DNA from: a virus
Direction: 5' to 3' (one strand)
DNA length: 31,150 nt
IMG/VR virus record: IMGVR_UViG_3300024518_000705
Location: 1 to 31,150 of that record
Each line of letters begins with the position of its first letter. Position 1 is the first letter of the stretch. The position numbers were made by a program, and so were the translations under genes. The notes beneath the pieces were generated by a model. It had not been told where the DNA came from, ran no database searches, and worked only from the letters and a program-made list of their open reading frames with translations. Below are positions 4,901 through 31,149 of the stretch, in pieces.

Positions 4901-7256
4901 AGTTCAAACGGAACTGGCATTGCCTGAACGCTTGGATCGGTCGAGTCACACCGACCAACGCGAGCCGACTCTTGACGATAGTGTCGTTGCTTGTCCAGAC
5001 ACCATCATCAACGCGCTGCGCCTCGTCGGATTCGTAGTCGGTGGTGACGTTCTTGAAGTCAGCCTCGATCACGTTGGGTCGCGTGTCCCGAGACTCGTAG
5101 CGCACAGAGAACTCGTTGACATCAGACATGCCAAGCAGTGCAACAGGACTCGCAGCATCATCAACGACTACGCTGATCTGTTGTCCGGTTGGTACGAGAT
5201 GACCCCAAGCCGAACGCGCTATGCCGCTGACGACTTCCCATCCGTCACCAACTGCATCAAGTACGGTGTCGCACACCGCACGCTTGGCTGTTCCTCCAGC
5301 ACCATCCGACACCAGTTCGCTGCACAACGTCTTCCATGTGTAGAACGATTGCCAATCCAAACGGTCAGCAGTCAGCAGGCCGTTGCGCCCAAGTCCGTAG
5401 ACCGGATGCAGGAGAAGATCAGCAACAACGTCAGCAGGACTGTCGCCCCACACAGGAGTCGGCACAACACCCGACCCCGATTGGTATGCCGTATCGAACG
5501 TGGGTGTGCCATCAGATGCGACCGACTGAAGACTCCATAGCTTCCTGCCCTTCCACACTGACGTGACGGTTGGTGTTCTGCCTTGGAACTGTTCGTTCGA
5601 CTGAACACGAACACCAAGCAACGCGAGCCCTGGGTAGGACTGCATATCATTCGTGATCTCGTTGACCGACACGATGTCGATCCGCGTATTCAGTTCAGGA
5701 TCTTCAGTCGGCCACTGACTGTTTCCTGTTGCTGTTCGCTCGATCTTGATGTCCAAGAAGATCGGGTCACCTTGGATGGTTGTGTTCGGGGATACGGTCG
5801 TGCCCGGAAGGTCATGGCGGAAGTACCTGTTCGTCGAACCACGGGTCTGCCCGGTGAGAACGATGTGCTGTCCGCTACCAGCTAACGCCGTCCAACTCGT
5901 TGTACCAGTCTCTCTCCAGTACACGTCGAAGCCAACTGCAACGTAGTCAACGTCACCATCGTCGAACTCGCATAGACCACCGGGACAGTTGAAGTTGATC
6001 TGGAAGCCATCAACCGCTGACGACGTGCTGTGCTGGAAGTGCGTTGCGTTGGTCGTCTCCCATGTGTACCCAATCGCAGACACCGTTTCCGCGAACCCTG
6101 GCATCGTGCTTTGGTCCACGGTGCCCATTCGCAAAGACACTTCGACTCCACGGTAGTTCGATGCAAGCGAGCCGTTGATCTTGATCTCGTCTGGAATCGT
6201 GGAGCCGGTCAACCCATCAACGTCAGAGGTGATGGTACTCACGCCTTCAACGGGTCCATGACTGATGGCGATAAGCATGTTGAGGATCTGATGTCCGTCT
6301 GCCTCAACAGTGTGGAACAGTTGGATGATGTTGCCGCCGATGATGTGTTCACCGTACACAACAGGAATCGGGATTCCGTTGAGCGCGGTGTTGCGGATAC
6401 CCTCCAGCTTGAACGTCGGAGAGTTGATGTCATCGCCACGACTCGGGTCATCAATACCGCTGAACGCGACAAGACCGTAGACGATGGACGCCACAGTCAG
6501 AATCAACGAGATGATGGCGAGGATGGTTCCAATCTCTAACCCGGTCGGCAAGTTCAGAACCAACAACGCCCCGCGCTCTGGGATGAGCGCATCGAAGTCC
6601 ATCCGCGAGCCGTCAGCATCGACAACGACAGCGGCGGTGTCTCCGTTCTCCCACCACTGAGCAGGTATGGCATCTCGTACGCGCAGCCCTTCGTGCCACG
6701 GCAGTCGTCGTACCTCGTGCGACTTAGGGTTGAAGATCGGGTCACCGACCAGCGTCACTGTGAACTCATGCTCGAACGTGAAGTGCTTGTCGTTGTTGAT
6801 GCCAACAAGACTCGCAGGCTCTTTCGGTCTCACGACACCAAGTACGAATGGACTACGGTCGAGACGGAACCGGGAGACATGGGCACCGTTGGACGGTGTT
6901 GTGTGGAGTATGCGCCCTGGCTCTGTGATGATGCCGAGATGATCGAACACACCGGGACGCGTTCGACTCATCAGTACCAGATCACCAGCGCGTGCGTCGT
7001 CCGCGTCAACGCTGTCCCATCCCCACGACGAGAACATGGATACGTCCGCGCTGCACTTCGCTGACTCGCTGAACTCACTGATGTCGAACCCGTCTACAGG
7101 ATCGAACATCTCAAGGCCCTGTCGCTGCATCACGACCTTGACCAACCCGAGGCAGTCGAGCCCTGTAGACTCGTTCCGACCGTGCAGCACGAACGGCGTA
7201 CCCAACAAGTCAGACCACAACGAGTCGTCGAGCTTGGTGTGCATCTCCGTCGTCAT
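1905..7256 (-). CDS. Tail-tip megaprotein: NlpC/P60-like peptidase + gpI-like membrane segment + gpJ-like central tip protein
   Basis: The protein has 1783 aa. Residues 1-140 resemble the C-terminal NlpC/P60 cysteine peptidase of lambda gpK, with nucleophile C35 in STGLDCLGLV and histidines at H106 (FDHLGII) and H118. Residues 150-235 look like the K/I ubiquitin-like part. A hydrophobic segment (about 238-266, TILAIISLILTVASIVYGLV) matches the membrane-perturbing part of gpI/J tip proteins. PTFKLEGIRN then PIPVVYGEHIIGG begins the gpJ-like host-specificity region, followed by fibronectin-like domains. Residues about 1400-1560 (KGQAVYVSG; FTAGDVLYVSPTTPGGLT) are a fibre-type domain common in aquatic phages. 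It should form the tip that digests peptidoglycan and opens the membrane. Start ATG 7256 overlaps the L-like gene by ATGA. Confidence 0.85.
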   Translation of the reverse strand: MTTEMHTKLDDSLWSDLLGTPFVLHGRNESTGLDCLGLVKVVMQRQGLEMFDPVDGFDISEFSESAKCSADVSMFSSWGWDSVDADDARAGDLVLMSRTRPGVFDHLGIITEPGRILHTTPSNGAHVSRFRLDRSPFVLGVVRPKEPASLVGINNDKHFTFEHEFTVTLVGDPIFNPKSHEVRRLPWHEGLRVRDAIPAQWWENGDTAAVVVDADGSRMDFDALIPERGALLVLNLPTGLEIGTILAIISLILTVASIVYGLVAFSGIDDPSRGDDINSPTFKLEGIRNTALNGIPIPVVYGEHIIGGNIIQLFHTVEADGHQILNMLIAISHGPVEGVSTITSDVDGLTGSTIPDEIKINGSLASNYRGVEVSLRMGTVDQSTMPGFAETVSAIGYTWETTNATHFQHSTSSAVDGFQINFNCPGGLCEFDDGDVDYVAVGFDVYWRETGTTSWTALAGSGQHIVLTGQTRGSTNRYFRHDLPGTTVSPNTTIQGDPIFLDIKIERTATGNSQWPTEDPELNTRIDIVSVNEITNDMQSYPGLALLGVRVQSNEQFQGRTPTVTSVWKGRKLWSLQSVASDGTPTFDTAYQSGSGVVPTPVWGDSPADVVADLLLHPVYGLGRNGLLTADRLDWQSFYTWKTLCSELVSDGAGGTAKRAVCDTVLDAVGDGWEVVSGIARSAWGHLVPTGQQISVVVDDAASPVALLGMSDVNEFSVRYESRDTRPNVIEADFKNVTTDYESDEAQRVDDGVWTSNDTIVKSRLALVGVTRPIQAFRQCQFRLNWADKVGKVATFKAGIEAIHLQPGDVVNLSHRSVDWGVSGRVLSNEATDFKITLDKKVVLAASDRIVVRTSGTGSDVLQTATTVTTGTVAAGTEITLSGGSWDANDKPQAGDPYSMGSVTTYTKPFIISKIQTDESLMRTFEAVEYNAAVYDDDPGPISPSTDEFPNPDKIPARLQNLAAWEEVSVQTDGSSTSIVAASVERDITTGPIDFFWRDSKSAVNLDKAEATWQYAGRTNGSTFRFPAPIRKTTVVISAVPVSSNGVRGSADAGTFASVFIQGRRVLPTSPSSDDVLFRQLGQQIVISLPESPDPDFSHYSIKTGSDWTSGREITQAGAGEHHIKVFTDDAVAYVLMVKSVSRSGYESASLVSYTVPDPSIVLPNGVKYSVNSDTAWSGTKSNTQVASGNLELSGSNLTGTYVEELTNGSDASQRYGILGLVNCLVQQADMQWQDAGFTWLSDRYGSKTWDTTYYDGYEAEEVQTWDQGGFTWDDALATLIQWDGPTDVINSLAPTLEMSTSSNDGLSWSAYEPYSPGERTLDRVRLRLTLNRPATIYNPQADQMRTALTAWDVSLDDIAGVTITGANDQDILVYDSASGQWVNEYHDRMFIRVKNDTAGAFTKGQAVYVSGPHNANVVDVELADASDAAKMPCFGLLFQDLAAGAEGLAVSFGKAIGVAANFTAGDVLYVSPTTPGGLTDTKPTSASHLIQNVGILMQAHASNASVKVTGVGRSNDVPNTISISGSVTASGFVTTPASTDVLVADGSTSDDTSLTAGSILYRNTTDPYWKNTGSALIYDEATGTFKTAADASTSNEVPRLSQFTTAATGKGADLIAYDNATSGLSAALVSDAIDEVAGLRQFTHSAYRSGSFSNGQMIRMYLNTTDNDANFVIPAGQTLKVLAAYGRCKAGSTAGKTTWTVGIRTWADQAHTGVNDHVLASGFTNSTNVYINVEAQGTLASPLATIVGDDDPVGMTYIQHDHTGGGSSASDKHTVMVYGVFI

Positions 7257-7945
7257 ACTCTTGCCGGTCCCTTCGGGATTCCAGGGAAGCCACCGAAGTT
7301 GAGAGGATGACGCGACGGGTGACCGTTAGCGGCTTCATTCGCTCCATGAGCGCGGCACCCGTTACCTTCGCTCTCGACACCAAGTTCGAGGTCGCACTTC
7401 GTTGGGTCGAAGTCTGAGTTGGTTGCAGAGATCAGGTTCGGCATCGAGGTGTCGTACATGCAACCCGGACCACCGTACACCCATCGGCATCGCGTTCGGT
7501 TGAAACGAACAGCAGGCACTTCTGCGGCCATGAGACTGTACGCACCGAGCAACAACTGTGCTGCGCCGAGCGATGTCGTCACCGTCTTGATGAAGTACGA
7601 CGACTCGTGGACTGACACCGTGAGATCGGATTCGTTGATGAGACGCACAGTGCATCGACGACCAAGCAAGTATCCAGACTCAAGGTATCCAGCGACCACT
7701 TGCTCGTAGTTCGCAACGACCACTTCGAGATCGAACAGGTCGCCTTCCCGACTCTTGTCCTGCGTTCCGATCTGTATGGGATATGGGTAGTAGACGTTGC
7801 CACCGAACGTCACCTGAGCATCGTAACCAGCAATGCGAACCGCGTTCGTTCCATCAACGTCGGCCTCGAACAACCAGACCCACGGCTTCGTGTTGTGGAT
7901 CTTGTTCTTCTCGGTGACGAGTGAGCTTGCAAGTGTTTCCGCCAT
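7253..7945 (-). CDS. Lambda gpL-like distal tail-tip protein, predicted Fe-S cluster
   Basis: The protein has 230 aa; the ATG at 7945 has AGGAGG seven bases upstream and overlaps the previous stop (GTGATG). The N-terminal half (residues 20-140) is the beta-rich tail-tip part, with YYPYPIQIG and EVVVANYEQVV. The C-terminal part carries four cysteines, C153 (TRCRWVYGG), C162 (GPGCMYD), C184 (TKCDLEL) and C197 (GNGCRAHG), and ends in NFGGFPGI, as lambda gpL-type proteins do. gpL homologues are known to coordinate an iron-sulfur cluster with such cysteines. Its place between the M-like gene and the K-I-J fusion matches lambda order. It should link the distal tail to the central tip protein. Confidence 0.82.
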   Translation of the reverse strand: MAETLASSLVTEKNKIHNTKPWVWLFEADVDGTNAVRIAGYDAQVTFGGNVYYPYPIQIGTQDKSREGDLFDLEVVVANYEQVVAGYLESGYLLGRRCTVRLINESDLTVSVHESSYFIKTVTTSLGAAQLLLGAYSLMAAEVPAVRFNRTRCRWVYGGPGCMYDTSMPNLISATNSDFDPTKCDLELGVESEGNGCRAHGANEAANGHPSRHPLNFGGFPGIPKGPARV

Positions 7946-9231
7946 CACAGAACCTCCTGCACTACAGCAGTCGCGCCATACACGCCCTTAGCACCTTCGA
8001 CGATGGTGAGCCCATCACCACCAACAGTGCGCAGCGTCACAGCCTCGTCAGTCTGTGGGTTCGTCCATGTGAACGTGAACACCCCGGACTCACTCGACTG
8101 CCACAACGCGTCAAGTGTGTTGCGCTGTGTTGCGTCCAACGCACCCCAGTGCATTTCCCATGTGCGGCGCGTGGCTGATGTCGCTGGTGAAGAGATCAGC
8201 GTGCCGTCACTCGTTCGGAAGTCTCGACTCGGGATGTCGTACGCAAGCGGCAACGCGAAGTCCGGTTGCACAGTCAGCGACGATCCTGATGCGTTCGCCT
8301 CACCGGCAAGAACAACGGACGCGAGTGGTGTCGTCGTTGTTGTTGCGGGCAACGGGAACAGCGAATCTGCGGGGACAGGGCGCAAGTCTTCTACCGTCCA
8401 CCAGTCAACACCAACGCGAGCCGTCAGGTCAATCGCCGCTCCCGGTGTGTACAGCGTCGGACCAACAGTGTGCGGCCCGTTCTGGCGAAGGTACACGCCG
8501 CAGTACCCGTCGAGACTTGTGATGTTCGCAGCCTCTGTGCGGGCGATGCTTTGCATTGCCGATGTCGGTGTACCAACACCAGAGTCATCGAAGTGACCGT
8601 ACAGCCTGAATTGTGTCGTAGACCATGCCTCGGCTCGTAGCGTGATGATGAAGTAGCTGCCCGCAGGAAGACTGAACCCACCAATGTTCGATGCGCCGAG
8701 TTGTACGCGGTTCGTGACGTGCCCCGTGTTGCAGTACGTCACTCTGTACAGGCGAAGCCATGACGGGTGAGCTACGCCAGCCTCGTATCGCCACAGGAGT
8801 TGGTACGCGTTCTGGCTGTCCGCATCGTTCGAGTCGAGGATGGTCACACCGGCTTCAACGTAGTCACCAACGTCAGTCGGCAAGACATCAGGCATCTTGA
8901 TGCGTGCGGTGACCCCGTACTCGATCGGGTCAGCTACAGTCGGTGTGCCACCAATCGGAGAAGGTCGTGGGTCGAAGTTCGTTCGCGTTCCACGGTACTC
9001 ACTGAACCGCCAGTCGGAACCACCGCTCGATGCGCCCGACGAATCAGGAAGCGTTAAAGCACCGTCCGTCTGCCATGCCTGACCACTCGACAACGTGCAA
9101 GCGTGTGGGTAGGTGTCTGACCCCGTAGTAAGCAGACGGGTCACCCACGCTGACCATAGACTGCTTGACGATGGAGTCGATGTGCCGAACGAATCGTTCT
9201 GCAACACGGTGCCCTGTTGATGAACAGCCAT
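7945..9231 (-). CDS. Minor tail protein: lectin-like N-terminal region with gpM-like C-terminus
   Basis: The protein has 428 aa. The ATG at 9231 shares its A with the tape-measure stop (TAATG). Residues about 60-290 are all-beta (RWSFxE-type opening, VEAGVTILDSNDADSQNAYQ, YGHFDDSG), resembling concanavalin-like/LamG carbohydrate-binding domains. The C-terminal about 95 residues (SATRRTWEMHWGAL ... SGVFTFTWTNPQTDEAVTLR) follow the pattern of lambda gpM/distal-tail domains, in which an F-x-W-T-x-P turn precedes a beta strand and a final strand. It lies between H and L exactly where lambda has M. It is likely a tail-end hub or adaptor with an inserted sugar-binding domain. Domain calls are by pattern, without a search. 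Confidence 0.65.
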   Translation of the reverse strand: MAVHQQGTVLQNDSFGTSTPSSSSLWSAWVTRLLTTGSDTYPHACTLSSGQAWQTDGALTLPDSSGASSGGSDWRFSEYRGTRTNFDPRPSPIGGTPTVADPIEYGVTARIKMPDVLPTDVGDYVEAGVTILDSNDADSQNAYQLLWRYEAGVAHPSWLRLYRVTYCNTGHVTNRVQLGASNIGGFSLPAGSYFIITLRAEAWSTTQFRLYGHFDDSGVGTPTSAMQSIARTEAANITSLDGYCGVYLRQNGPHTVGPTLYTPGAAIDLTARVGVDWWTVEDLRPVPADSLFPLPATTTTTPLASVVLAGEANASGSSLTVQPDFALPLAYDIPSRDFRTSDGTLISSPATSATRRTWEMHWGALDATQRNTLDALWQSSESGVFTFTWTNPQTDEAVTLRTVGGDGLTIVEGAKGVYGATAVVQEVL

Positions 9232-12200
9232 TACCGTCTACCGACTCGCGCAGAGACGCCTTGCTTGAAGTTGACGTTCTGGTTCAGCGCACGCTGCACG
9301 ACACCCGCAATGGTCGCACTCTCAGAGACGATCATCTGAGACACGCTACGCGAGTCCATGGCAGTCACATCGAAGTTGACGTTGACGATGACGTTCTGCC
9401 CACCACCTCCTTGCAGACGCACGGGGATGCTGCGGTTGTCTGGGAGAGGGACGATGGCTTCGGCGTTGCGTCCTTCTCCGATGAGTCCAAGCGTGGCACG
9501 GTTGACCACGCCACCGCGAGCCCATCGCGGGAAGGACTGGAGACCACCATCGCCTTGTTCGATGTCAACAGGGATGCCGCCTGGTGTGAAGTTCCCTTCT
9601 TGTCCTTCCCATGTACCGGGTTCTGCACCAGCAGAGAACAACTGCCCAAGCAGGCCGAGCGCCTTAAGCACCAACCACTTGGCAAACATCTCCGCAACGA
9701 AGTCAGACATCGCACGCAGGACACTCTTGAAGAAGTTGTCGAACGCTTGCTTGATGCCGTCAAGGTCACCAGTGAACAACGAGTAGAACGTATCGCTCAA
9801 CGCGCCGCGTAACGAGTCGATAACCGTTACCAGTCCATCGGTAACAGCATCACCGAGAAGCTCACCGAGTGTCCTGAGACGTTCGAGACCGTCTTCGTCT
9901 ACACGCACCAGCCCGAGTGCGCGTGCGATGTTTGATCCTGTCTCCTGCGCGAACGTCAGTTGCTCATCTGGTGTGCTGAGCAATCCAACACCAGCACCAG
10001 CACCAGCACCCCCACCAGCACCCACACCGCCAGTGAACCCCTTCCCGAGTGCTACCGCGCTCCTGAAGGCATCAGCCCCGAGCTTGCCCAAAGCAGTGAA
10101 ACCTGTCTTAACTCCCTTGGCAACTGGACTGCCCGCGATGGCAGTGAACGAGTCACTAAGAGTGTTCTGTAGATCGGTCATCCCCTTGACCTTGAACGCT
10201 TTGTTCAAGAGAGACGTAATCCTACCGACCAGTGCAGACACGTCGTCGAGGCTGAGCAACTTGGCGAATAGATCACCGCGTCCCTTCCCAAGTCGTGCAG
10301 CAGTCCGGTCGATGGCTCCTACCAACGCAGGCTTCAGTCTGTTGGCGACAAGATCATCCGCTCGTCTTGTGAGTTCTGACACATCAGCTTCGAGCAGTTG
10401 TGCCGCAAGACTACCCTCGCCCAGACTGTTGATAAGTGCGTCACGACGTTCGATGGTCTCCTTCAAGCCGTCGATGTGTTCCTGTGTGACGACTACTCGT
10501 AGAGCTTTCAAACGCTTCTGAAGATCGTTTGCTGTTATAGACAACCCAAGCTGCGTTCCGAACTCGCTACGTTTGCCGGGCATCCTCATTTGCTTTACAA
10601 CGTCAGCAAGTGCCTTCTCTACGGCGCGAATCTCTTCAGGTGTTCCGATGAACGATCCGATCCCGCGACCCGTCTCCTTCCTCAGTCGCTTGACGCCACG
10701 CTCCAAGCCGTTCAGTTGTTCACCGACCTTGGTTAGACTCGTGATGGCTTCACGCCCGACACCGAGCTTCAGCAACTCTTTTTTGAGGAACCCACCAAAG
10801 CCGTCAGAAGCTCCAAGGTTCCGAGCCAGTTCTGCTTTTGTAGAACCGAAGAGTGCCTGAGCAAGAGCAATGCCGATGCTCCTGCCGATCACCTTGAATG
10901 TCTGCAACATCAACGGGATGCCAGCAATGAACACCGCGATCATGCCATCCACGATCCCGATGGCGATGTTCACGAAGTCAGAGATGATCGTGCCTTCCTT
11001 CACGCTTGAGCGAATCAGGTCAAACAACTGCTTCATCTTCCGAGCGAGGAACGCAACAACCTCTCCGATGGACTTCGCAATAGCAGTAGTGAACGCAACA
11101 ATGGTCGGCGTGTTTCGGCGAATTACGACGGCGAACTCTTTGAGCTTTTTGATGACATCTTCGATGAACGGCTTGAGACCTTCACCGAGAGAGATGGCAA
11201 CAGTGTCGAACGCTGCACGAAGGCGAGTCAACTGAACCGCAAGCGTCTTCGACATGAACTCGAAGTTCTTTTCGGTGACACCTGCTGCATCGCCCATGGA
11301 CTCCAGTGTTTCGGTGAACGCCTTGGCATCGTCTGCTGCAAGTGCAGCAAGACCAACGAAGCCGCGCACAGAACCACCAAGAGCAGACATCTCTTCTACT
11401 GTCGGCTCAATGCCATCCTTGTTCAGTTGCTTGATGAGACCAAGCAGACCTTCAGCCTTCAACGTCGCACCGTCCCACTCGATGCCCAGCTTCTTCACAA
11501 CACTCGCAGACTCTTCGGATGGCCGGATCGCTGCCTGCAACGCAGCACGCAATGACGTAACAGCTTCGGCGGTTGATAGACCCGTGACCGCTGTGAGCGC
11601 AGACACCGACGCAAGCATCTCCTCAAAGCCGATGCCAGCAGTACGCGCAATGGGTGCCAGCTTGCCGATGTTGGTGGACAGTTCACCAACAGTCGTGATG
11701 CCGAGCTTCTGTGCTTGGAACAACGCGTCACTGACTCGCACAGCGTCATCGGCTTCGAGGTTGTACGACTTGATGATAGCGATCAGACCGGATGTCGCTG
11801 AACTCATGGTCGTGTTACCAGCGACCGCGAGCTTGCCAGCTTGAGTCAGTACGTCTGTACTGTCGGCTGATGCTACCTGGGCAGACACGAGGTCGAACAT
11901 CGCCTTAGACGCATCGGCAACCGACGCGCCCGTCTGAAGCATCGCTTGCTGCACGGCATCTGAAAACGAACTGAACGACGCCGCTGCGTCATCTGTCAGC
12001 GTGGCAACCGCAGCAACGCCCTTCTCGAACTCAGCAAACGTCTTGACAACCTCACGACCCAACGCTCCGATGATGATGCCCCTGAGCATTGTGAACCGTG
12101 GAATCAAACTACGCGCAGCCATGCCGATACGACGTAGCCCAGCCGAGAACTTCTTTGCTGCTGTTGTTGCCGCCCTGAAAGCCCTGCTTGTGTAGTCCTT

Positions 12201-22787: not shown

Positions 22788-24341
22788 TTAGAAGACTGAT
22801 ACCTTCGCTTCCCTGAAACCACGCACGCGGATCTGCCACGCGACTGCCCACGTCATGATGAGATCGTCGTGAAAGCCTGACCGTGCTTCGTACTTGCCGT
22901 TGCCGTTGTCCTCGAACGTCCTGCACTCTGCGAGGAAGGCGCGGTCGTTGACAAGCACGGACTCCTCCACCATCGCTTCGCGCAGATCATCAAGCATGAT
23001 CGGTCGCGTCAGTTGGTCAGTGCCCCACCCGAGCTTCTTGGTTGCACGCCGCTTCTCGTTGACTGACTTCTCGTAGTACAGACGCGGGTAGCGTTCGACG
23101 TTCTGCAAGGTGTTCAGCGTCGAGTGCCCGTGGTTGTTTCGTTCGACGCCGATGAGTGCGAGGTTGTAGTAGCGACCCAACTTGGCGATGCGCTTAGCGA
23201 ACTCTTCCGGTCGCCACTTCCCCCAGAGCCTTGCGACCTGTTCGCCTGTCTCAATGTCGAGGACACCCGCTGCGCTGTAGTCGCCTTCAGGCGTACCCTC
23301 TGCAACGTCAGCACCGAGGACGTACGAGTGTCCCTCTTCCGGTTCCTTCCAGAACACGATGCCGTCTTCCGTTCGCAGTTCAGCCAACGCGTCAGCAGCG
23401 AAGTCGTTCAAGTCGGCGTGGTCCCAGTAGCACAGTGACGATGACAGGAACGACTCTTCAAGGATCTCCGGGTACTCCTGCGCGAACAGCCGACGCATCG
23501 CACGCTCTTGCTTCTTGGCCCGCCGCCACTTGATCTGTTCAGCAGTCAGCAGGTGTTCGCGGACAAGCCATGTCTCGCGGTCGTCGAGGGACGACATGAT
23601 CTCTCGCCGTTCGTCGTCTTGAGTGATCGGCAACTGTAGCTTCAAGTCCTTGAACCACGGGACGAAGATCAACGACCACTCGCTGTCCCTTGTGGACGCA
23701 GCCGTGCAGGCTTCGTACCACCACCCGCTGTTGCCGTTGCTCGTTGACTCAAGTGTCACCTCGCCATGCGAACACGCTTCGGTCAGCCCGGCGATGAGTT
23801 GCTCGACCTCGTTCTCCTTGTCGCGTCTGTTCGCAAGCCAGTACGCAACCTCGCTGCCATGCACGCGCTGAAGGGTATCGCCACGACCGAACGCAACGCT
23901 ACCTGCTGTGCCGATGAAGAACTGCGAGCCGAGTTCGTGGAAGTGCAACGACTTGGACGACTCCACCTTCCGCTTGGGTCGGATGGCCGGATCAATGTGA
24001 TCGTAGAACAGGGTCGCCATCTCGAAGATGCGGGCCGTCTTCTCTCTGCTGTCAGAGAGCGTCACTGCGTACTGACCACGACGGTTGGCGCACAACGCAA
24101 ACGAGAACGCCTGCTCCATCGTTGTGACACCCACGCGTCGAGACTTCGGCAACAGGAAGCGAGCAGGGCGACCAGCGGCACGGGCCTTCGCCTTCTCTGC
24201 CATGATGAACCGCTGCACGTTGTTCCAGTACAGCGGGATGACCTTGCCGACCTGATCGCGGATATGAAGCAACGACTGGCAGTACGCAGACGCCGACCCA
24301 AAGACGTGACTCGCCTTCGGGCCGACTTCAGTCTGTTGCAT
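22788..24341 (-). CDS. Terminase large subunit (TerL)
   Basis: About 517 aa from ATG 24341; a GTG five codons upstream (24356) is possible. The ATPase domain has a Walker-A-type loop near residues 65-75 (LLPKSRRVGVTTMEQAF) and a Walker-B-type strand in VHGSEVAYW. The nuclease domain has the acidic clusters VLGADVAEGTPEGDYSAAGV, LIGVERNNHGHSTL and GFHDDLIMTWAVAW, the usual RNase H-like metal site. It cuts concatemeric DNA and pumps it through the portal. It overlaps terS by 14 bp. The full domain set and length are normal, so it should be active. Confidence 0.93.
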   Translation of the reverse strand: MQQTEVGPKASHVFGSASAYCQSLLHIRDQVGKVIPLYWNNVQRFIMAEKAKARAAGRPARFLLPKSRRVGVTTMEQAFSFALCANRRGQYAVTLSDSREKTARIFEMATLFYDHIDPAIRPKRKVESSKSLHFHELGSQFFIGTAGSVAFGRGDTLQRVHGSEVAYWLANRRDKENEVEQLIAGLTEACSHGEVTLESTSNGNSGWWYEACTAASTRDSEWSLIFVPWFKDLKLQLPITQDDERREIMSSLDDRETWLVREHLLTAEQIKWRRAKKQERAMRRLFAQEYPEILEESFLSSSLCYWDHADLNDFAADALAELRTEDGIVFWKEPEEGHSYVLGADVAEGTPEGDYSAAGVLDIETGEQVARLWGKWRPEEFAKRIAKLGRYYNLALIGVERNNHGHSTLNTLQNVERYPRLYYEKSVNEKRRATKKLGWGTDQLTRPIMLDDLREAMVEESVLVNDRAFLAECRTFEDNGNGKYEARSGFHDDLIMTWAVAWQIRVRGFREAKVSVF

Positions 24342-24900
24342 CAGCGTCGCTGTCACCGTACAAGAAGCCTGCGGTCCCTTCGTCCATCTGCTGAAGCGTC
24401 AACGTCTCGCTGTCCACAGCTTTCCGTTTCTCTTCCAAGGCGTCGAGGATCTGTTCGACCTTCACCCCGACGTTGACGTTGACCTGACCCTCCCCAGGTT
24501 GTTTGCTCCAGCCCGGTTCCTTGAGGTCCATCTCAAGCCGCTGCACGATCTCCCAGTCCTTCGGAGTCGGATGGTAGGTCGGGTCGTTGTCGAGCCGTTC
24601 CTGCAACCGCTTGGCGATCCTGAGCTTCAGACCGACAGCAATCTTGATCGCTTGCTGCTTCTGTTGCAAGAGTTCGTCTTCAGTCGTGCTTTGCAGTCTG
24701 ATGGCATTCTGCTGCCGCCAGTCCTCCCGCGCTTCCTTCCACAAGTCCTTCGCCGCTCGCTTGTTGAGTGCGCTCAGGCTGACGCCATGCTTCACGCTCA
24801 ACTCTTCCCGAGATATCTGGGAAGTGATGTACTCGGTTCTGATGCGGGGCCAGTCCTTCGCGTCTCCTCGCAGCTTCACCCTCGCCTTAGCCTTAGCCAT
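24328..24900 (-). CDS. Terminase small subunit (TerS)
   Basis: The protein has 190 aa from ATG 24900, which overlaps the folE stop by 8 bp; the upstream extension is a folE shadow. The N-terminus is basic (AKAKARVKLRGDAKDW). An HTH follows, with IRTEYITSQISREELSVKHG and then VSLSALNKRAAKDLW as the recognition part, as in many TerS proteins. The middle is coiled coil (DELLQQKQQAIKIAVGLKL) and the acidic C-terminus should contact TerL. It recognises the packaging site. Its direct coupling to the 7-deazaguanine genes is unusual and is discussed under findings. Confidence 0.85.
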   Translation of the reverse strand: MAKAKARVKLRGDAKDWPRIRTEYITSQISREELSVKHGVSLSALNKRAAKDLWKEAREDWRQQNAIRLQSTTEDELLQQKQQAIKIAVGLKLRIAKRLQERLDNDPTYHPTPKDWEIVQRLEMDLKEPGWSKQPGEGQVNVNVGVKVEQILDALEEKRKAVDSETLTLQQMDEGTAGFLYGDSDADATD

Positions 24901-25450
24901 GCACCATACCGATGAGTTCAGCCCGTGCCGCATCCGACTCCCTGAACTGCCCAAGCATCGAGGTTGTGTGCATCACTGCGCTTGACTGCCGCACGCCTCG
25001 ACACTGCATACACAGATGCTGCGCCTGTACGAAGCAGGCTGCACCTCTTGCATCGAGATGATCCATCAACGCCTCTGCAACCTCACGAGTCATGCGTTCC
25101 TGTATCTGGAGGCGACGACTGAAGCACTCAACGAGTCGTGCCAGCTTCGACAACCCTACGACCTCGCCGCTCTTCCCTGGTAGGTAGGCAACATGGGCAA
25201 TGCCGCTGAACGGCAACAGGTGATGCTCGCACGTTGAGTGAAACGCGATGTCACGCAGCATCACAATCTCATCAGACCCTGCTGCGAACCGCTTCGCCAA
25301 CAGAACACCAGGGTCTTGACCGACACCTGATAACAGCTCCACCCATGCGCGTGCCACGCGGTGCGGTGTCTGAGCCATCAACTCAACGTCGTCGCCACGC
25401 CCTGCCATCGTCAGGATCGCCCGTACACCGTCACCCATCGCATCAGCCAT
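24893..25450 (-). CDS. folE: GTP cyclohydrolase I
   Basis: The protein has 185 aa. ATG 25450 has GGAG seven bases upstream and shares a base with the queE stop. It has the family zinc site: C74 and H77 in AFHSTCEHHLLPFSGIAHVAY, and C147 in QHLCMQCRG. The flanking motifs ELMAQTPHRVARAWVELLSG, GLSKLARLVECFSRRLQIQE and TREVAEALMDHL are all intact, and the length fits short FolE enzymes. It converts GTP to dihydroneopterin triphosphate, the substrate of QueD. In a phage with QueD, QueE and QueC, it supplies the first step of preQ0 synthesis rather than folate. Confidence 0.93.
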   Translation of the reverse strand: MADAMGDGVRAILTMAGRGDDVELMAQTPHRVARAWVELLSGVGQDPGVLLAKRFAAGSDEIVMLRDIAFHSTCEHHLLPFSGIAHVAYLPGKSGEVVGLSKLARLVECFSRRLQIQERMTREVAEALMDHLDARGAACFVQAQHLCMQCRGVRQSSAVMHTTSMLGQFRESDAARAELIGMVHG

Positions 25451-26118
25451 CACTCAACTCCAAGTACCTTGTGAGCCTGTAACGAAACTTGCCACGCACC
25501 AACAAGCGATGCCATCATCTCCACGAGCGCGTCTCTGCACTCACGCATCTGGTCACCGTAGTCTGAGGCACCGTCTTCAATCGGCTGCACATATCTACTG
25601 CCATGCCATGCGCCAAGCCATGAGTCGAACGCCAACGGCGTGAGGGCAGGATCTGGGTGGGGCCACAGCACCTTGAACTCATCAACGTCACCGATGGGTA
25701 TCTTGATCTCATCAGGCGGGCGCTTCGGGGAACACGCGACCCACTCAACAGCATCACGAACACCATGGTCCAACTGGACAAGACCGTTGGTCTCAACCCA
25801 CAACGACCAACTGCGAGAGAGTACGCGTGCCAGATCGCCGTCCAACTGCAACAGTGGTTCACCTCCTGAAACAACAACAGCGCGAACCCAACCGTGTGTC
25901 TTCTCGCTGATGGCATCGTGGATCTCGTCAGCCGTCATCAACGCGCCACCTATGAAGTCAGTATCACAGAACGGGCACAGGCTCGACGCCTTGGTGTCAG
26001 GATGACCACTCCACGCGTTGCATCCGGCGAACCGTAGGAACACTACTGGCGCACCAGCGTGCCGCCCCTCTCCCTGGAGAGTAGGGCCGAACACCTCCTT
26101 CACCGCGTACCGCTTCAT
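25450..26118 (-). CDS. queE: 7-carboxy-7-deazaguanine synthase (radical SAM)
   Basis: The protein has 222 aa from ATG 26118, which forms an ATGA overlap with queD. It opens RYAVKEVFGPTLQGEGRHAG, the QueE N-terminus. The radical-SAM cluster is the QueE-specific CX14CX2C: C33 (AGCNAWSG), C48 and C51 (LCPFCDTDF). SGGEPLLQ (84-91) is the SAM-binding GGEP motif, and VETNGLVQL and ACSPKRPP match the later beta strands. It rearranges 6-carboxytetrahydropterin into 7-carboxy-7-deazaguanine (CDG). All key residues are present. Confidence 0.93.
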   Translation of the reverse strand: MKRYAVKEVFGPTLQGEGRHAGAPVVFLRFAGCNAWSGHPDTKASSLCPFCDTDFIGGALMTADEIHDAISEKTHGWVRAVVVSGGEPLLQLDGDLARVLSRSWSLWVETNGLVQLDHGVRDAVEWVACSPKRPPDEIKIPIGDVDEFKVLWPHPDPALTPLAFDSWLGAWHGSRYVQPIEDGASDYGDQMRECRDALVEMMASLVGAWQVSLQAHKVLGVE

Positions 26119-26546
26119 CGACCTGCATCCGCCCAACAGTTCGGCGTCTCCCACACGCGGACGCTAACGACCTTGACGCCTGTGTCCGCAAGCAAGTCGT
26201 TTGACTTGTCGAGTAGCCAACCAGCCATGTTCTCTGCTGTCGGGTTGAACGGCACATAGACGATGCCGAGCTTCGTTGCTGACGCACCAGCACCGACCAG
26301 GATACCCTTGGCAAACCCGTCACCCTCCCACAGCAGCAGCTTGTGGTCCCAGTTGGCATCCAGCCACGTTCCGATCCGACCCTTCAGAACGCTGAAGTCG
26401 ATGACTCGACCAATCGAGTCAAGTGACTCAGCGTTCGCCGTTACCTCGACAACGTACCGATGCCCGTGCAGTTGAGCGCACTTCGACTCGTGACCGTGGA
26501 CACGGTGTCCAGCGTCGAACTCCAGCTTCCTCGTGCATGTGGTCAT
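26115..26546 (-). CDS. queD: 6-carboxy-5,6,7,8-tetrahydropterin synthase
   Basis: The protein has 143 aa. ATG 26546 is chosen because it forms an ATGA overlap with the upstream gene and has AGGAG upstream; the upstream frame is a shadow. Zinc ligands are H14 (FDAGHRVHG), H28 and H30 (QLHGHRYVVEV). The catalytic Cys is C23 (SKCAQLHGH), with D67/H68 (NWDHKLLL) and the C-terminal glutamate in VSVRVWETPNCWA. It converts dihydroneopterin triphosphate to carboxytetrahydropterin, between FolE and QueE. C23 before HGH is the feature that separates QueD-type from eukaryotic PTPS-type enzymes. Confidence 0.93.
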   Translation of the reverse strand: MTTCTRKLEFDAGHRVHGHESKCAQLHGHRYVVEVTANAESLDSIGRVIDFSVLKGRIGTWLDANWDHKLLLWEGDGFAKGILVGAGASATKLGIVYVPFNPTAENMAGWLLDKSNDLLADTGVKVVSVRVWETPNCWADAGR

Positions 26547-27202
26547 CTGTTGATCTCCTTCTGAGCCCACTCCCTCACGATAGGATGACACAGCGGCGCA
26601 TACATGGAAGGTCCGTGTGTCTGGACGTACCACCTCGACTTCTTGCCCGCCATGCGGCGTGACGGCATCAACCGCATGAACTGCGCCCACTGCAACGGGG
26701 TCGGCACAATAGCGAGTTCGATGCCCATGCCTGCACATACGCGAGACAGCAGGGCACGTTGCGCTTTGCGAGGGAGAAACGCCGCAACGATCTTTCTGTA
26801 CCGATGCGTCGAAAAGAATGAGCGCATCCGCCTCTCCAAGACCTCGGCGGTGTGGTCCACATGAGGTTCGATTGGATCAAATACTGTGAAGGGCCACTCG
26901 TTCTCAAAGGCCATCGGGACTACACAACCACCAGCGATCTGTTCCCATATCACCAAGTCTGCGCCTGTTAAGGTGGAGAAAGACGCCCACGTTCGAGAAC
27001 GAGAGAAAGGTTTTGTCTTGGTACACAGGGCCACGAAGCACACGGGATTCTTAATGCTGTGCCCCGCGCACACCCGTAACGATGCCTCTTCCATGATCTG
27101 ACTGCGGAGCATCCTGTTGGACCTTGTGTACCCTTGGAGCGTGGCATCTGGGACTCTCTCGGACTCAGAGAACAATGTCATGGACTCTTCTCTCAGGGTC
27201 AT
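26543..27202 (-). CDS. Unknown protein in preQ0 cluster with archaeosine-synthase-like (DUF5591) cysteine motif
   Basis: The protein has 219 aa and is tied to queC (27199-27202) and queD (26543-26546) by ATGA overlaps, so it belongs to the pathway. Residues 60-72 read C-TKT-KPF-SR-S-RT-W. The archaeal archaeosine synthase ArcS (TgtA2) has the signature P-C-x3-K-P-Y-x2-S-x2-H in its DUF5591 domain. The spacing is identical, with P to L, Y to F and H to W changes. The following GGCVVPMAFENEWPF and VFDPIEPHVDH also recall that domain. ArcS adds lysine to the preQ0 nitrile in tRNA. The protein lacks the TGT and PUA domains of ArcS. Alternatives are a DUF6884-like protein or another preQ0/CDG-processing enzyme. 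Confidence 0.55.
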   Translation of the reverse strand: MTLREESMTLFSESERVPDATLQGYTRSNRMLRSQIMEEASLRVCAGHSIKNPVCFVALCTKTKPFSRSRTWASFSTLTGADLVIWEQIAGGCVVPMAFENEWPFTVFDPIEPHVDHTAEVLERRMRSFFSTHRYRKIVAAFLPRKAQRALLSRVCAGMGIELAIVPTPLQWAQFMRLMPSRRMAGKKSRWYVQTHGPSMYAPLCHPIVREWAQKEINR

Positions 27203-27891
27203 GCAACTGTCGGAAACGCTGGGTCAAGGAACCCAGCCTCCTCGAAGCCCTTGGCACGCAGCAGGCACGCATGGCACGACCCGCACCCAGGACGAACGCC
27301 TGCGTAGCAAGTGTGAGACATGCCGAGCGCCTTCCAACACGCTTTGCCAAGCTCCTCCGCGAGCAGCACCGTCTCCTTCTTCGTTCGGTTGAGCAGCGGC
27401 GTCTCGATCACCGGCTGGACTGGCACGCTCTCGCCAAGAGCTTCGTCCATCGCGCTGCCCATCGACCTGATGAAGTCCTCACGGCAGTCTGGATAGCCGC
27501 CATAGTCCTCCTGCGAGACGCCTGTCACTATCGCGCTGCACCCAAGCACGGCAGCCCTGTTCGCAGCGATCGTGAGGAACAGCGCGTTACGCATCGGGAC
27601 GAACGTCTTCTCCACGCCTCCTGGGAGAGATGCGGCATCGGCATACGTCTCAAGGGCTTCCTCAGACACCAGCGGTGACGTGCCCGCCAACACCCCTTCA
27701 CCGATCGACACCGTCTCGTGAGACGACACCCTCGCGTGGCGTGCGATCGCTTCCGCCGCCTCCACCTCGCACTTGTGACGTTGCCCGTAGTGCATCGTCA
27801 GCGCATGGACCGCGTCGTACCGCTGCAACGCCCAGAACAGGCAGGTCGTCGAATCCTGACCACCAGAGAACAACACTACTGCTGACGCCAT
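27199..27891 (-). CDS. queC: 7-cyano-7-deazaguanine (preQ0) synthase
   Basis: The protein has 230 aa. ATG 27891 has GGAG nine bases upstream; GTG 27906 and ATG 27900 are weaker alternatives. The PP-loop ATP site is SGGQDSTT at residues 9-16. EKTFVPMRNALF and GVSQEDYGGYPDCREDF are QueC signatures. Four cysteines, C195, C203, C206 and C209 (HTCYAGVRPGCGSCHACLLR), form the zinc site. It turns CDG into preQ0 using ATP and ammonia. The start overlaps the dpdA stop by 16 bp. There is no amidotransferase (Gat) domain fused here, unlike the Gat-QueC proteins that make archaeosine. Confidence 0.94.
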   Translation of the reverse strand: MASAVVLFSGGQDSTTCLFWALQRYDAVHALTMHYGQRHKCEVEAAEAIARHARVSSHETVSIGEGVLAGTSPLVSEEALETYADAASLPGGVEKTFVPMRNALFLTIAANRAAVLGCSAIVTGVSQEDYGGYPDCREDFIRSMGSAMDEALGESVPVQPVIETPLLNRTKKETVLLAEELGKACWKALGMSHTCYAGVRPGCGSCHACLLRAKGFEEAGFLDPAFPTVA

Positions 27892-28727
27892 GACGAACAT
27901 CTCCACTCACCAGGTAACTCACTCATCAACTGAACTTGCTTGCGCCAACGCTGACGAAGTTGTCTCTCAGTACGCTGCCACCACTCGATCTCGACCCTGA
28001 CGTTCAACGCACCTCTCGCTGACAGTTGCGTCTGCGACGACTTACCAAGACGACGCCCATACCCACGCCACATGCCGTACTTGGAAGGACCAACCTTCCA
28101 AGTAGTCGCATCGACGGAATGCCAAGGCAACGCCCACAGATCCTTCGGTGAGAAGAACGCAAGCCCGTGGATGCGGCACGGCCACACACTTGCGAAGACT
28201 TGCTTAGCGAGATCGAGTTTACGTTTGCCCTTTAGCCCTGCTGCACCTCCCAAAGAAATCTTCGGATAGTGCTTCGCGTAGTGCGTCAACAACTCTTCCG
28301 ATTCCCCAGCGTGCCACACTGGTATGGCACGCACGCCTGCCTCCCACATCTTCTCTGTGTTGCGTCTTCCCTCTTCAGGATCGCCCAACACGTCCAGTGA
28401 GAACACCTCGACGAGCCTTGGATCTGTTGCCGCGAACTCGTGGCACGCCTCGATGTACTCCTGAAGATCAACAACACCTCCTGAGTTATAGGCTGAGAAC
28501 GCACCAGAGTCCATCGACCACGAGCGGTGGCGATAGTTCGTCGCTCGCTTGCGCCATGCGTCGATGAACGCGAAGGACACAAGCACTGACGACTTGCCTT
28601 GGGGCAACGCATCGTCCGCGTCTTCACCACATTGATCCCTCCACTCACAGTCATCTTCACCAGCGAGGCCAGCGGTCACATCACTGCCAGCCTTGCCTGT
28701 AGGGGTCACTGCGAAGCGGATGTTCAT
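27876..28727 (-). CDS. dpdA: DpdA-like DNA guanine transglycosylase
   Basis: The protein has 283 aa. ATG 28727 forms an ATGA overlap with the parB-like stop; GTG 28742 is the alternative. It has the TGT-type TIM-barrel pattern of phage DpdA: D73 in SWSMDSGAFSAYN (base-binding aspartate region), VFSLDVLGDPEEG, the repeat KISLGGAAG, CRIHGLAFFSPKDLWAL and D206 in WHSVDATTWK, the position of the nucleophilic aspartate. The length matches short phage DpdA proteins. Known DpdA enzymes exchange guanine in DNA for preQ0 or a derivative. The C-terminus is a basic, Trp/Arg-rich helix. DpdA subfamily cannot be set from the sequence alone. Confidence 0.85.
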   Translation of the reverse strand: MNIRFAVTPTGKAGSDVTAGLAGEDDCEWRDQCGEDADDALPQGKSSVLVSFAFIDAWRKRATNYRHRSWSMDSGAFSAYNSGGVVDLQEYIEACHEFAATDPRLVEVFSLDVLGDPEEGRRNTEKMWEAGVRAIPVWHAGESEELLTHYAKHYPKISLGGAAGLKGKRKLDLAKQVFASVWPCRIHGLAFFSPKDLWALPWHSVDATTWKVGPSKYGMWRGYGRRLGKSSQTQLSARGALNVRVEIEWWQRTERQLRQRWRKQVQLMSELPGEWRCSSWRQQ

Positions 28728-29374
28728 GCGTTGCGTCGCCACTCTTCGACAAGAGACAGCACAATCCCTTCGTTACTGTCTCCATGACCACCCGTGGCTT
28801 TCCATTCCTCGAAGAAGCGTGTCATCGTCACCCGTGCATCCCGTGCAAACTTCAAAACAACGAAGTCGTTAGACGCACCGCTGAGTTCAACACCCTCAAA
28901 CCCACCACCACCGAGGTCTTGTGCTGCGTCCCAGTCGGCATCGAACAACGGCTTGAGTTCATGCTCGTCCCACCCCAACAGACCAAGGTCAAACTCCTCC
29001 TCTCTCAATGCAGAGAGGGAACCAGACAACGATTCGAGATCCCAGTCTGCAAGCTCTGCCGTGCGGTTGTCAGCGATTGCAAACGCTGTGGCCGACACGT
29101 TGTCCTCGTCAACGACGACCGCAGCCACCTCTGTCCACCCAAGCTGCCGTGCTGCCTCCAGACGACCGTTCCCAGCACGGACGATCATTCCTTCTCGCTG
29201 AACAACAAGCGGGATGCGTTGCCCGAACTGCGAGAAGCTCGACTTGATCGCCTCGACGTTGCGCTCGTCATGCCGTCGTGCGTTCGCTGGATCGTGGTGC
29301 AACGAGTCCACCGCGACAGCCAACGGCTGCAACGACGGAACGATCCGCACAGCCTGCTTCGTCTTCGCTTTCAT
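28724..29374 (-). CDS. ParB/Srx-domain protein, coupled to dpdA
   Basis: The protein has 216 aa from ATG 29374, with GGGAG upstream. Residues about 15-110 are the ParB N-terminal domain: DSLHHDPANARRHDERNVEA, SFSQFGQRIPLVVQREG and the nucleotide-binding box RAGNGRLEAARQLGW, then AIADNRTAELADWDLESL, as found in phage ParB proteins often fused to DNA methylases. Here no methylase follows. The C-terminal about 60 residues (NDFVVLKFARDARVTMTRFF) are a separate helix-rich domain. It may direct DNA modification. In the bacterial dpd system, DpdB also belongs to the ParB/DndB superfamily and is needed with DpdA. That parallel is inference. Confidence 0.8.
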   Translation of the reverse strand: MKAKTKQAVRIVPSLQPLAVAVDSLHHDPANARRHDERNVEAIKSSFSQFGQRIPLVVQREGMIVRAGNGRLEAARQLGWTEVAAVVVDEDNVSATAFAIADNRTAELADWDLESLSGSLSALREEEFDLGLLGWDEHELKPLFDADWDAAQDLGGGGFEGVELSGASNDFVVLKFARDARVTMTRFFEEWKATGGHGDSNEGIVLSLVEEWRRNA

Positions 29375-30197: not shown

Positions 30198-30676
30198 CAC
30201 TTCTCCTCCTTCAGCTTGTCGTAGGCGGCGAAGAAGTCACACTCGAAGTCCGACGTGTAAACTCGCGCAGCCTCCACCACCTTCTCGGCGGCATCCAACG
30301 TCTTCCGCAGCCGCTCGATCTCGTGTTGCATATCCTCTATTCCCCGTGCCTTGAGCCGCTTGTTCTCAGCCCGCAGCCGCTCCACCTCGGCGCGGAGTTC
30401 CCGAACTCGGTTGACAGAGAGGTTGGCATGGACCCGAGTGAAGCGCTTGCCGTCAACCTCAGGGTCACCCGTGTTGAACGAGCCACACTCGTTGCATTTA
30501 GTGTCGTACTCGTGCATGTCGGGGGTGTGGGTCTCGACGTTTGTGAAGCCTTCAAGTGAGCCGCAATCGAAGCACGCCCACAGCGGGGATTCCTCGCCAA
30601 CTTCCAGACCACCACAAAAGCAGGCACCGGGGATGTCCCAAGCCTGCAACGCGGGGCAATCTTTCTCGTGACCCAT
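30197..30676 (-). CDS. Zinc-ribbon and coiled-coil protein
   Basis: The protein has 159 aa; the ATG at 30676 overlaps the upstream stop, with a GGGGGAG site. The N-terminus has EKDCPALQAWDIPGACFCGG, a cysteine motif common in small actinophage-like and environmental phage proteins. CFDCGS and CNECGSF then form a four-cysteine zinc ribbon (about residues 34-66). Residues about 90-145 are a continuous coiled coil (VRELRAEVERLRAENKRLKA; EIERLRKTLDAAEKVVEAAR). A role in nucleic acid binding or as a dimeric adaptor is plausible but not shown. Confidence 0.68.
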   Translation of the reverse strand: MGHEKDCPALQAWDIPGACFCGGLEVGEESPLWACFDCGSLEGFTNVETHTPDMHEYDTKCNECGSFNTGDPEVDGKRFTRVHANLSVNRVRELRAEVERLRAENKRLKARGIEDMQHEIERLRKTLDAAEKVVEAARVYTSDFECDFFAAYDKLKEEK

Positions 30677-31149
30677 CACTCCCCCTCCTTCAGTGCTTCG
30701 CGGGCAACCCGCTGGAGCGACGTTACGAAACCTGCCTGGGTCGCGGGAATGTCGTCAAGTCTCCCGTCAGCGATGTCCTTGAGCGCCTCCCGCAGCCGCT
30801 CGACCACGGCGTTGCCGGAGACCTTGGCGTTCCCGGAGACCTTGGCGTTCCCGGAGACCCGGGCGTCGCCGCAGACCACGGCGTTGCCGAAGACCTTGGC
30901 GTTGCCGAAGACCACGGCGTTGCCGAAGACCGTGGCGTTGCCGTAGATCTCGGCGGTGCCGCTGACCCTGGCGGTGCCGCTGACCACGGCGTTGTCGAAG
31001 ACCGTGGCGTTGTCGAAGATCATCGCGTCGCCGTAGACCCAGGCGTTGTCGAAGATCATCGCGTCAGGCCCCACATAAGCCGTGTCGGCTACCGTCGCCG
31101 TATCGGCCACCCATCCGCCGCCGTTGGGGTGCTTCTTGTACCCGTCCAT
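30676..31149 (-). CDS. Left-handed beta-helix (hexapeptide-repeat) protein
   Basis: The protein has 157 aa. It starts DGYKKHPNGGGWVADTATVA, a usual opening for phage hexapeptide proteins, then carries about 16 hexapeptide turns (residues about 15-115; TARVSG, TAEIYG, NATVFG, NAVVFG, NAKVFG, DARVSG). These form a left-handed beta helix in known families. A short helical tail follows (VERLREALKDIADGRLDDI). Family members include acyltransferases, but no catalytic histidine loop is visible, so it may be a structural or binding protein. The ATG at 31149 is the last full codon of the window, so an earlier start cannot be excluded. Confidence 0.72.
   Translation of the reverse strand: MDGYKKHPNGGGWVADTATVADTAYVGPDAMIFDNAWVYGDAMIFDNATVFDNAVVSGTARVSGTAEIYGNATVFGNAVVFGNAKVFGNAVVCGDARVSGNAKVSGNAKVSGNAVVERLREALKDIADGRLDDIPATQAGFVTSLQRVAREALKEGE
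30802..31075 (-). repeat. 18-bp tandem repeats inside the beta-helix gene
   Basis: Near-identical 18-bp units encode single hexapeptide turns; on the plus strand they read like GACCTTGGCGTTCCCGGA or GACCACGGCGTTGCCGAA. The central ones differ by only one to three bases, so the array probably grows and shrinks by slippage. It is a coding repeat, not a CRISPR: there are no spacers. Confidence 0.8.

Follow-up and report, generated by a model that had tools for sequence, protein, structure and literature searches.

Which base does a phage make when its genome carries the genes for synthesizing 7-cyano-7-deazaguanine (preQ0) and for inserting it into DNA, together with a relative of an archaeal enzyme that acts on preQ0? 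The question is raised by virus record IMGVR_UViG_3300024518_000705, analysed here over its whole length of 31,150 bases (the window; classed linear, GC 58%). Genes for FolE, QueD, QueE, QueC and DpdA lie at 24893-28727 on its minus strand, and a further gene, at 26543-27202, stands between QueC and QueD. By profile comparison and by the fold of a relative, the product of this sixth gene is distantly related to archaeosine synthase (ArcS), whose core domain is DUF5591.

An ArcS-core homologue in a preQ0 operon

The five named genes had been recognized in a first-pass annotation made from the sequence alone, and they are real: all are free of stops and assigned by Pfam, PHROGs and NCBIfam. With FolE, QueD, QueE, QueC and DpdA the window carries the gene set of a phage 7-deazaguanine DNA modification operon, and the operon itself is of a known kind (Hutinet 2019, PMC6884629). 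The pathway named in the annotation, from GTP through preQ0 to DNA, is the right one, the five pathway genes being intact. Its gene list was incomplete, however, since gene 26543-27202 had been overlooked, and because the operon includes this homologue of the ArcS core, plain preQ0, the implied end product, is probably not the end point. That preQ0 could be made without the host holds as far as gene content goes. QueF is indeed absent from the window, where the sole match (11.8 bits against a cut-off of 27.3) is a cross-match inside FolE; since the record is linear, the phage may have a QueF gene elsewhere.

The four zinc cysteines and the SGGQDS loop (PP-loop) of QueC align with 2PG3, the Cx14CxxC cluster of QueE aligns with 4NJG (NCBIfam queE_Cx14CxxC, TIGR04508, E 9e-40), and FolE aligns with a solved FolE structure; all three alignments run through the cofactor or metal ligands. 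QueD aligns less well with its solved counterpart than these three; its PTPS match spans residues 68-204 of a longer frame and its TIGR03367 match (E 1e-22) is below the cut-off. DpdA has no Pfam match, and its residues D78, D117, H144, H192 and D211, all of catalytic type, do not vary among the 10 DpdA proteins aligned, the window's included. D211 (numbered from the GTG start), in the stretch HSVDATTW, is the residue that the annotation called D206, and is presumably the nucleophile, as in the tRNA-guanine transglycosylase (TGT) family. H192 corresponds to H196 in the DpdA of phage JenP1, position 196 being the conserved histidine of 9g-type DpdA (Hutinet 2019, PMC6884629).

The protein encoded at 26543-27202 (P0001) is a single domain of 219 amino acids; Pfam detects no TGT domain in it and no PUA domain. 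When four relatives were combined into a profile that excluded the window sequence, P0001 scored 74.6 bits. With this profile only P0001's own frame among 280 window frames reaches E ≤ 10, none of 2000 shuffles does so, and the scores of five archaeal-type sequences range from 12.7 to 41.1 bits. The seven phage relatives that were scanned (nt-1, L006, L007, L013, L042 and two in L043; L numbers denote our loci) all lie above the DUF5591 cut-off. A three-sequence profile that does contain the window sequence (P0001, nt-1 and CZ01) finds PDB 2Q07 (AF0587) at E 1.3e-10. The first structure model, of the window protein, was poor (pLDDT 54); with it, Foldseek ranks 2Q07 first (E 0.014, probability 0.99). 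The model of the L013 relative (pLDDT 77) matches 2Q07 with Z 14.5 (138 residues aligned, 3.1 Å), the next row having 6.7 (VIA-align). The phage proteins are thus related to the archaeal ArcS core by profile and, for the L013 relative, by fold. Among relatives the gene is under purifying selection, with dN/dS of 0.20 among L007-L009 and 0.06 between nt-1 and CZ01.

Besides the core fold (tested on the relative), archaeal ArcS/AF0587 and the phage proteins have in common a Cys..[KR]P[FY] motif: the cysteine (Cys60 in the window protein) is universal, and each of the ten phage sequences has it together with [KR]P[FY]. The residues around it differ. Five archaeal-type sequences carry PC-x3-KPY-x2-S-x-T-H, whereas the ten phage sequences follow LC-x3-[KR]P[FY]-x2-[SG]-x-x-[WY]; the window protein (LCTKTKPFSRSRTW), which unlike archaeal ArcS has no fused TGT domain, departs from the archaeal form as LC-x3-KPF-x2-S-x-x-W. 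Loci fetched by our search pattern were preselected for the tryptophan; in the five phage sequences free of that preselection (window, nt-1, CZ01, L013 and the second L043 copy) the position is Trp in four, Tyr in one and His in none. Judged by this motif, the phage proteins form a subfamily, and its distinctness is why we use the name ArcS-core-like and not ArcS.

Relatives and their neighbourhoods

ArcS-core genes were found in eight virus groups: the window; nt-1 with CZ01; L006/L012; L007/L008/L009; L013/L015/L016 with L014; L042; L043; and the Sulfolobus viruses STSV1 and STSV2. A tblastn search of 50,697 phage records with P0001 returned only nt-1 (two records) and CZ01, a DNA pattern search gave four stretches, all four true members by profile, and L013-L016, L042 and L043 came from searches based on alignments or on wider patterns. 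No relatives of the ArcS-like protein came from a single-sequence search of IMG/VR, from the first three-sequence alignment or from two scans of genome contigs, and a plasmid search found none for the window protein.

Apart from STSV, where the search did not cover preQ0 genes, every group has QueC adjoining the ArcS-core gene or only a few genes away. DpdA is recognizable by sequence in the window, nt-1 (the published DpdA2), L006/L012, L007-L009, STSV2 and L043 (DpdA2-like); in L013 a candidate at motif level only lies next door to the ArcS-core gene. The gene order of the window recurs in L007, L008 and L009, where the genes past FolE look by eye like packaging genes, while in L012 QueD precedes the ArcS-core gene. 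ParB followed by DpdA is common to L007, L008, L009, L012 and Mycobacterium phage Quesadilla. Quesadilla has the window's order ParB-DpdA-QueC-QueD-QueE-FolE-TerS-TerL but, unlike the window, no ArcS-core gene between QueC and QueD.

Like the window, nt-1 and CZ01 have QueD, ArcS-core, FolE, QueC and DpdA genes clustered, and the nt-1 ArcS-core protein is 31% identical to that of the window, an N-terminal LFSESE motif being common to both. The two systems differ in gene order and in DpdA, since nt-1 has a DpdA2 that lacks an equivalent of His196 (Hutinet 2019, PMC6884629) whereas the window has the 9g type with the histidine. Moreover, nt-1 is a 247-kb Straboviridae phage, whereas the window phage has a tape-measure tail. 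In STSV2 (STSV2_15, STSV2_16; L026:1998-3408) a DpdA gene (phrog_887, E 6e-56) precedes a stand-alone ArcS-core gene, the same gene as STSV1 ORF19 (L027:2845-3408); unlike the window phage, these viruses have an archaeal host and the archaeal motif intact. Two Bicaudaviridae are among the carriers of such genes listed by Hutinet 2019 (PMC6884629). The ArcS-core genes of both viruses and the DpdA gene of STSV2 are all annotated as hypothetical.

Several variants were seen among these loci. The 306-kb viral record L043 has two ArcS-core copies and two genes resembling nt-1 DpdA2 in one stretch (6525-7280, 8173-8844, 8885-10567 and 10622-12145). The ArcS-core frame L042:6235-7374 is extended at its C terminus by about 150 residues in which Pfam recognizes no family, and the FolE frame L006:3182-4018 has an N-terminal extension that by eye resembles a phosphoribosyltransferase. 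Two haloarchaeal plasmids encode TGT-type proteins of 654-667 amino acids with the ArcS-core motif (L024:974-2977 and L025:1019-2983), and in the Natrinema one of the two Pfam finds TGT and DUF5591. In nt-1, ORF392 (L002:14639-15247), after QueC, begins with MCGLF, by eye like a class II glutamine amidotransferase, and has no Pfam match.

The predicted DNA base

We consider it probable that the operon yields an amidine-type base. FolE, QueD, QueE and QueC would convert GTP to preQ0, DpdA would exchange guanines of phage DNA for it, and the ArcS-core-like protein, by homology the likeliest enzyme to modify the nitrile further, would act on preQ0 already in DNA. Its conserved cysteine would form a thioimide with the nitrile, and an amine (ammonia, lysine or other) would be transferred, so that the product would be archaeosine (dG+) or else a stable adduct of preQ0 with the amine. 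The placing of this step after insertion follows from the T. kodakarensis enzyme (TkArcS), which takes preQ0 in RNA or as the nucleoside, not as the free base (PMC11298593), so that an ArcS-core-like protein beside DpdA should do likewise. This reading draws on gene presence, order, homology, fold relationship and conservation, on a null result for the RaSEA family in the records searched, and on published work on preQ0 insertion by DpdA and restriction protection by 7-deazaguanine bases in other phages (Hutinet 2019, PMC6884629) and on the transfer of lysine by the archaeal enzyme. Activity of the phage protein, DNA as its target, its donor and its product are inferred.

The archaeal pathway also has RaSEA, and no match to TIGR01210, which we take to be the RaSEA model, was found in any of 16 viral records. 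The window is one of them and, being a linear record of 31,150 bases, it is a fragment whose phage may still have such a gene. Fifteen of the records are ArcS-core carriers (BcepGomr is not a known one), several of the 15 being near-identical to one another or fragments; nt-1, CZ01, STSV1 and STSV2 were deposited as complete genomes. Three controls scored above the cut-off and are taken to be the three euryarchaea listed. The complete nt-1 genome has three radical SAM matches, namely QueE (by motif), a 181-amino-acid frame at 175133, NrdG-like at a guess, and ORF138 (L057:965-2020), a radical SAM protein that could be an alternative lyase. CZ01 has a radical SAM match equal in size to ORF138. 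At E ≤ 0.01 there was no radical SAM match in G010 (306 kb), STSV1 or STSV2, a threshold that QueE can miss: record G003 has QueE yet no match.

Where DpdA and a stand-alone ArcS-core protein occur with no RaSEA, a preQ0-lysine (or other amine) adduct might be kept as the final DNA base, a proposal that we advance only tentatively. In T. kodakarensis, ArcS transfers lysine onto preQ0 in RNA and RaSEA then yields archaeosine (PMC11298593). Archaeal ArcTGT is unable to remove preQ0-Lys from tRNA (PMC11298593), so that the base, once in adduct form, would also be locked in. If it existed, DNA would contain a charged, amino-acid-bearing guanine analogue outside the bases followed in the nt-1 study. 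Its calculated [M+H]+ is 438.21, with a base fragment of 322.16; the transitions monitored were those of dADG, dQ, dPreQ0, dPreQ1 and dG+ (Hutinet 2019, PMC6884629), and therefore the published multiple reaction monitoring settings would not have registered it. This would explain why nt-1 DNA seems almost unmodified: it had 232 dPreQ0, 72 dADG and 44 dG+ per million nucleotides, whereas dPreQ0 reached 70,628 in CAjan and 96,530 in Rosebush (Hutinet 2019, PMC6884629), so that the nt-1 total is about 200-fold below CAjan and lower still relative to Rosebush. Two explanations offer themselves: nt-1 is hardly modified, or its main base escaped monitoring. The window phage poses the same question. 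Further phage 7-deazaguanines are reportedly the subject of a 2023 paper in Nucleic Acids Research, which may bear on nt-1.

Archaeosine is a sub-case of the amidine-type reading that we regard as doubtful; the ArcS-core-like protein would make it either unaided, with ammonia or glutamine, or with the help of a host lyase. Phages with DpdA, FolE/QueD/QueE/QueC and ArcS have been grouped as predicted producers of dG+ and not of dPreQ0, and dG+ is detected in nt-1 (Hutinet 2019, PMC6884629), but at only about 0.02% of G. M. jannaschii ArcS reportedly takes NH4+, Asn or Gln as donor, but the donor of other archaeal ArcS proteins is lysine and not ammonia (PMC11298593), and the RaSEA null in all 16 records also speaks against dG+.

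Alternatively, the phage would stop at dPreQ0, the ArcS-core-like protein being inactive, structural or an accessory of DpdA. Quesadilla, with the same operon and no ArcS, fits this, as do Rosebush, which has the preQ0 set and DpdA with no amidotransferase and carries 28% of its G as dPreQ0, the predominance of dPreQ0 among the bases measured in nt-1 (Hutinet 2019, PMC6884629), and the altered active-site motif of the phage proteins. Against it stand the conserved Cys and [KR]P[FY], the low dN/dS, the recurrence of the gene in eight virus groups and the very small base total of nt-1, and we judge this outcome unlikely. A role of the operon in boosting or altering host tRNA modification is very improbable: archaeal ArcS and TGT do act on tRNA (PMC11298593), but the window DpdA is of the 9g type with the H196 equivalent kept, DpdA is required for the DNA base in CAjan (Hutinet 2019, PMC6884629), and the single-domain ArcS-core-like protein lacks TGT and PUA matches.

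Several results weigh against an amidine-type base. P0001 reaches only 21.7 bits with DUF5591, the Pfam cut-off being 26, and with the better model (L013) Foldseek alone leaves 2Q07 out of its top 50. Pro to Leu and His to Trp or Tyr changes are found in 10 of 10 phage sequences versus 0 of 5 archaeal-type ones, and Lys is replaced by Arg in 9 of the 10. L042 had no DpdA match in the stretch searched, and the choice of DNA over tRNA as substrate comes from the linkage to DpdA. Finally, nt-1, the only ArcS carrier in the measured table, has mostly dPreQ0 and little dG+ (Hutinet 2019, PMC6884629), which would also fit a feeble or inactive ArcS.

This operon adds breadth to the phage 7-deazaguanine systems known so far. 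The function of phage ArcS has been called 'less clear' (Hutinet 2019, PMC6884629), and the overlooked gene makes it testable, by a named mass, in the cultured Vibrio phage nt-1, whose host is Vibrio natriegens. An adduct, if it exists, would be a new class of DNA hypermodification by an archaeal-type enzyme.

Operon layout and surrounding genes

The minus strand of the window carries head and tail genes of a tailed phage. In order of transcription the region reads ParB-like, DpdA, QueC, ArcS-core-like, QueD, QueE, FolE, TerS and TerL. Overlaps of 4 bases join ParB to DpdA, QueC to the ArcS-core-like gene, the latter to QueD, QueD to QueE and QueE to FolE; with these overlaps and no internal stop in any operon frame, the region reads as one operon.

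Table 1. Operon genes and the adjoining terminase genes in the window, in order of transcription
Product	Position	Strand	Remarks
ParB-like protein	28724..29374	-	phrog_620 E 2e-35; stop overlaps DpdA ATG
DpdA, 9g-type DNA-guanine transglycosylase, 283 aa	27876..28727	-	phrog_887 E 7e-34
QueC, 7-cyano-7-deazaguanine synthase	27199..27906; alternative start 27891	-	TIGR00364 E 4e-56, above cut-off
ArcS-core-like protein (DUF5591 homologue by profile), 219 aa, P0001	26543..27202	-	motif LCTKTKPFSRSRTW; overlaps QueC stop and QueD start
QueD, 6-carboxytetrahydropterin synthase, 143 aa from ATG at 26546	26115..26546	-	PTPS E 4e-32
QueE, radical SAM 7-carboxy-7-deazaguanine synthase, Cx14CxxC type	25450..26118	-	TIGR04508 E 9e-40, under cut-off
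FolE, GTP cyclohydrolase I	24893..25453	-	Pfam GTP_cyclohydroI E 2e-62; NF006826 above cut-off
Terminase small subunit (TerS), first gene past operon	24328..24954	-	phrog_1206 E 3e-7
Terminase large subunit (TerL)	22788..24356	-	phrog_2 E 1e-23

A search with the first 25 kb of the window brought up no near relative among phages, and single-sequence IMG/VR searches with DpdA or TerL gave no relatives. The portal protein and TerL have low-identity matches in many phages, which leaves the lineage of the window phage unplaced. At the window edge, a beta-solenoid repeat protein is encoded at 30676-31149 on the minus strand (Pfam B_solenoid_ydck, E 1e-16).

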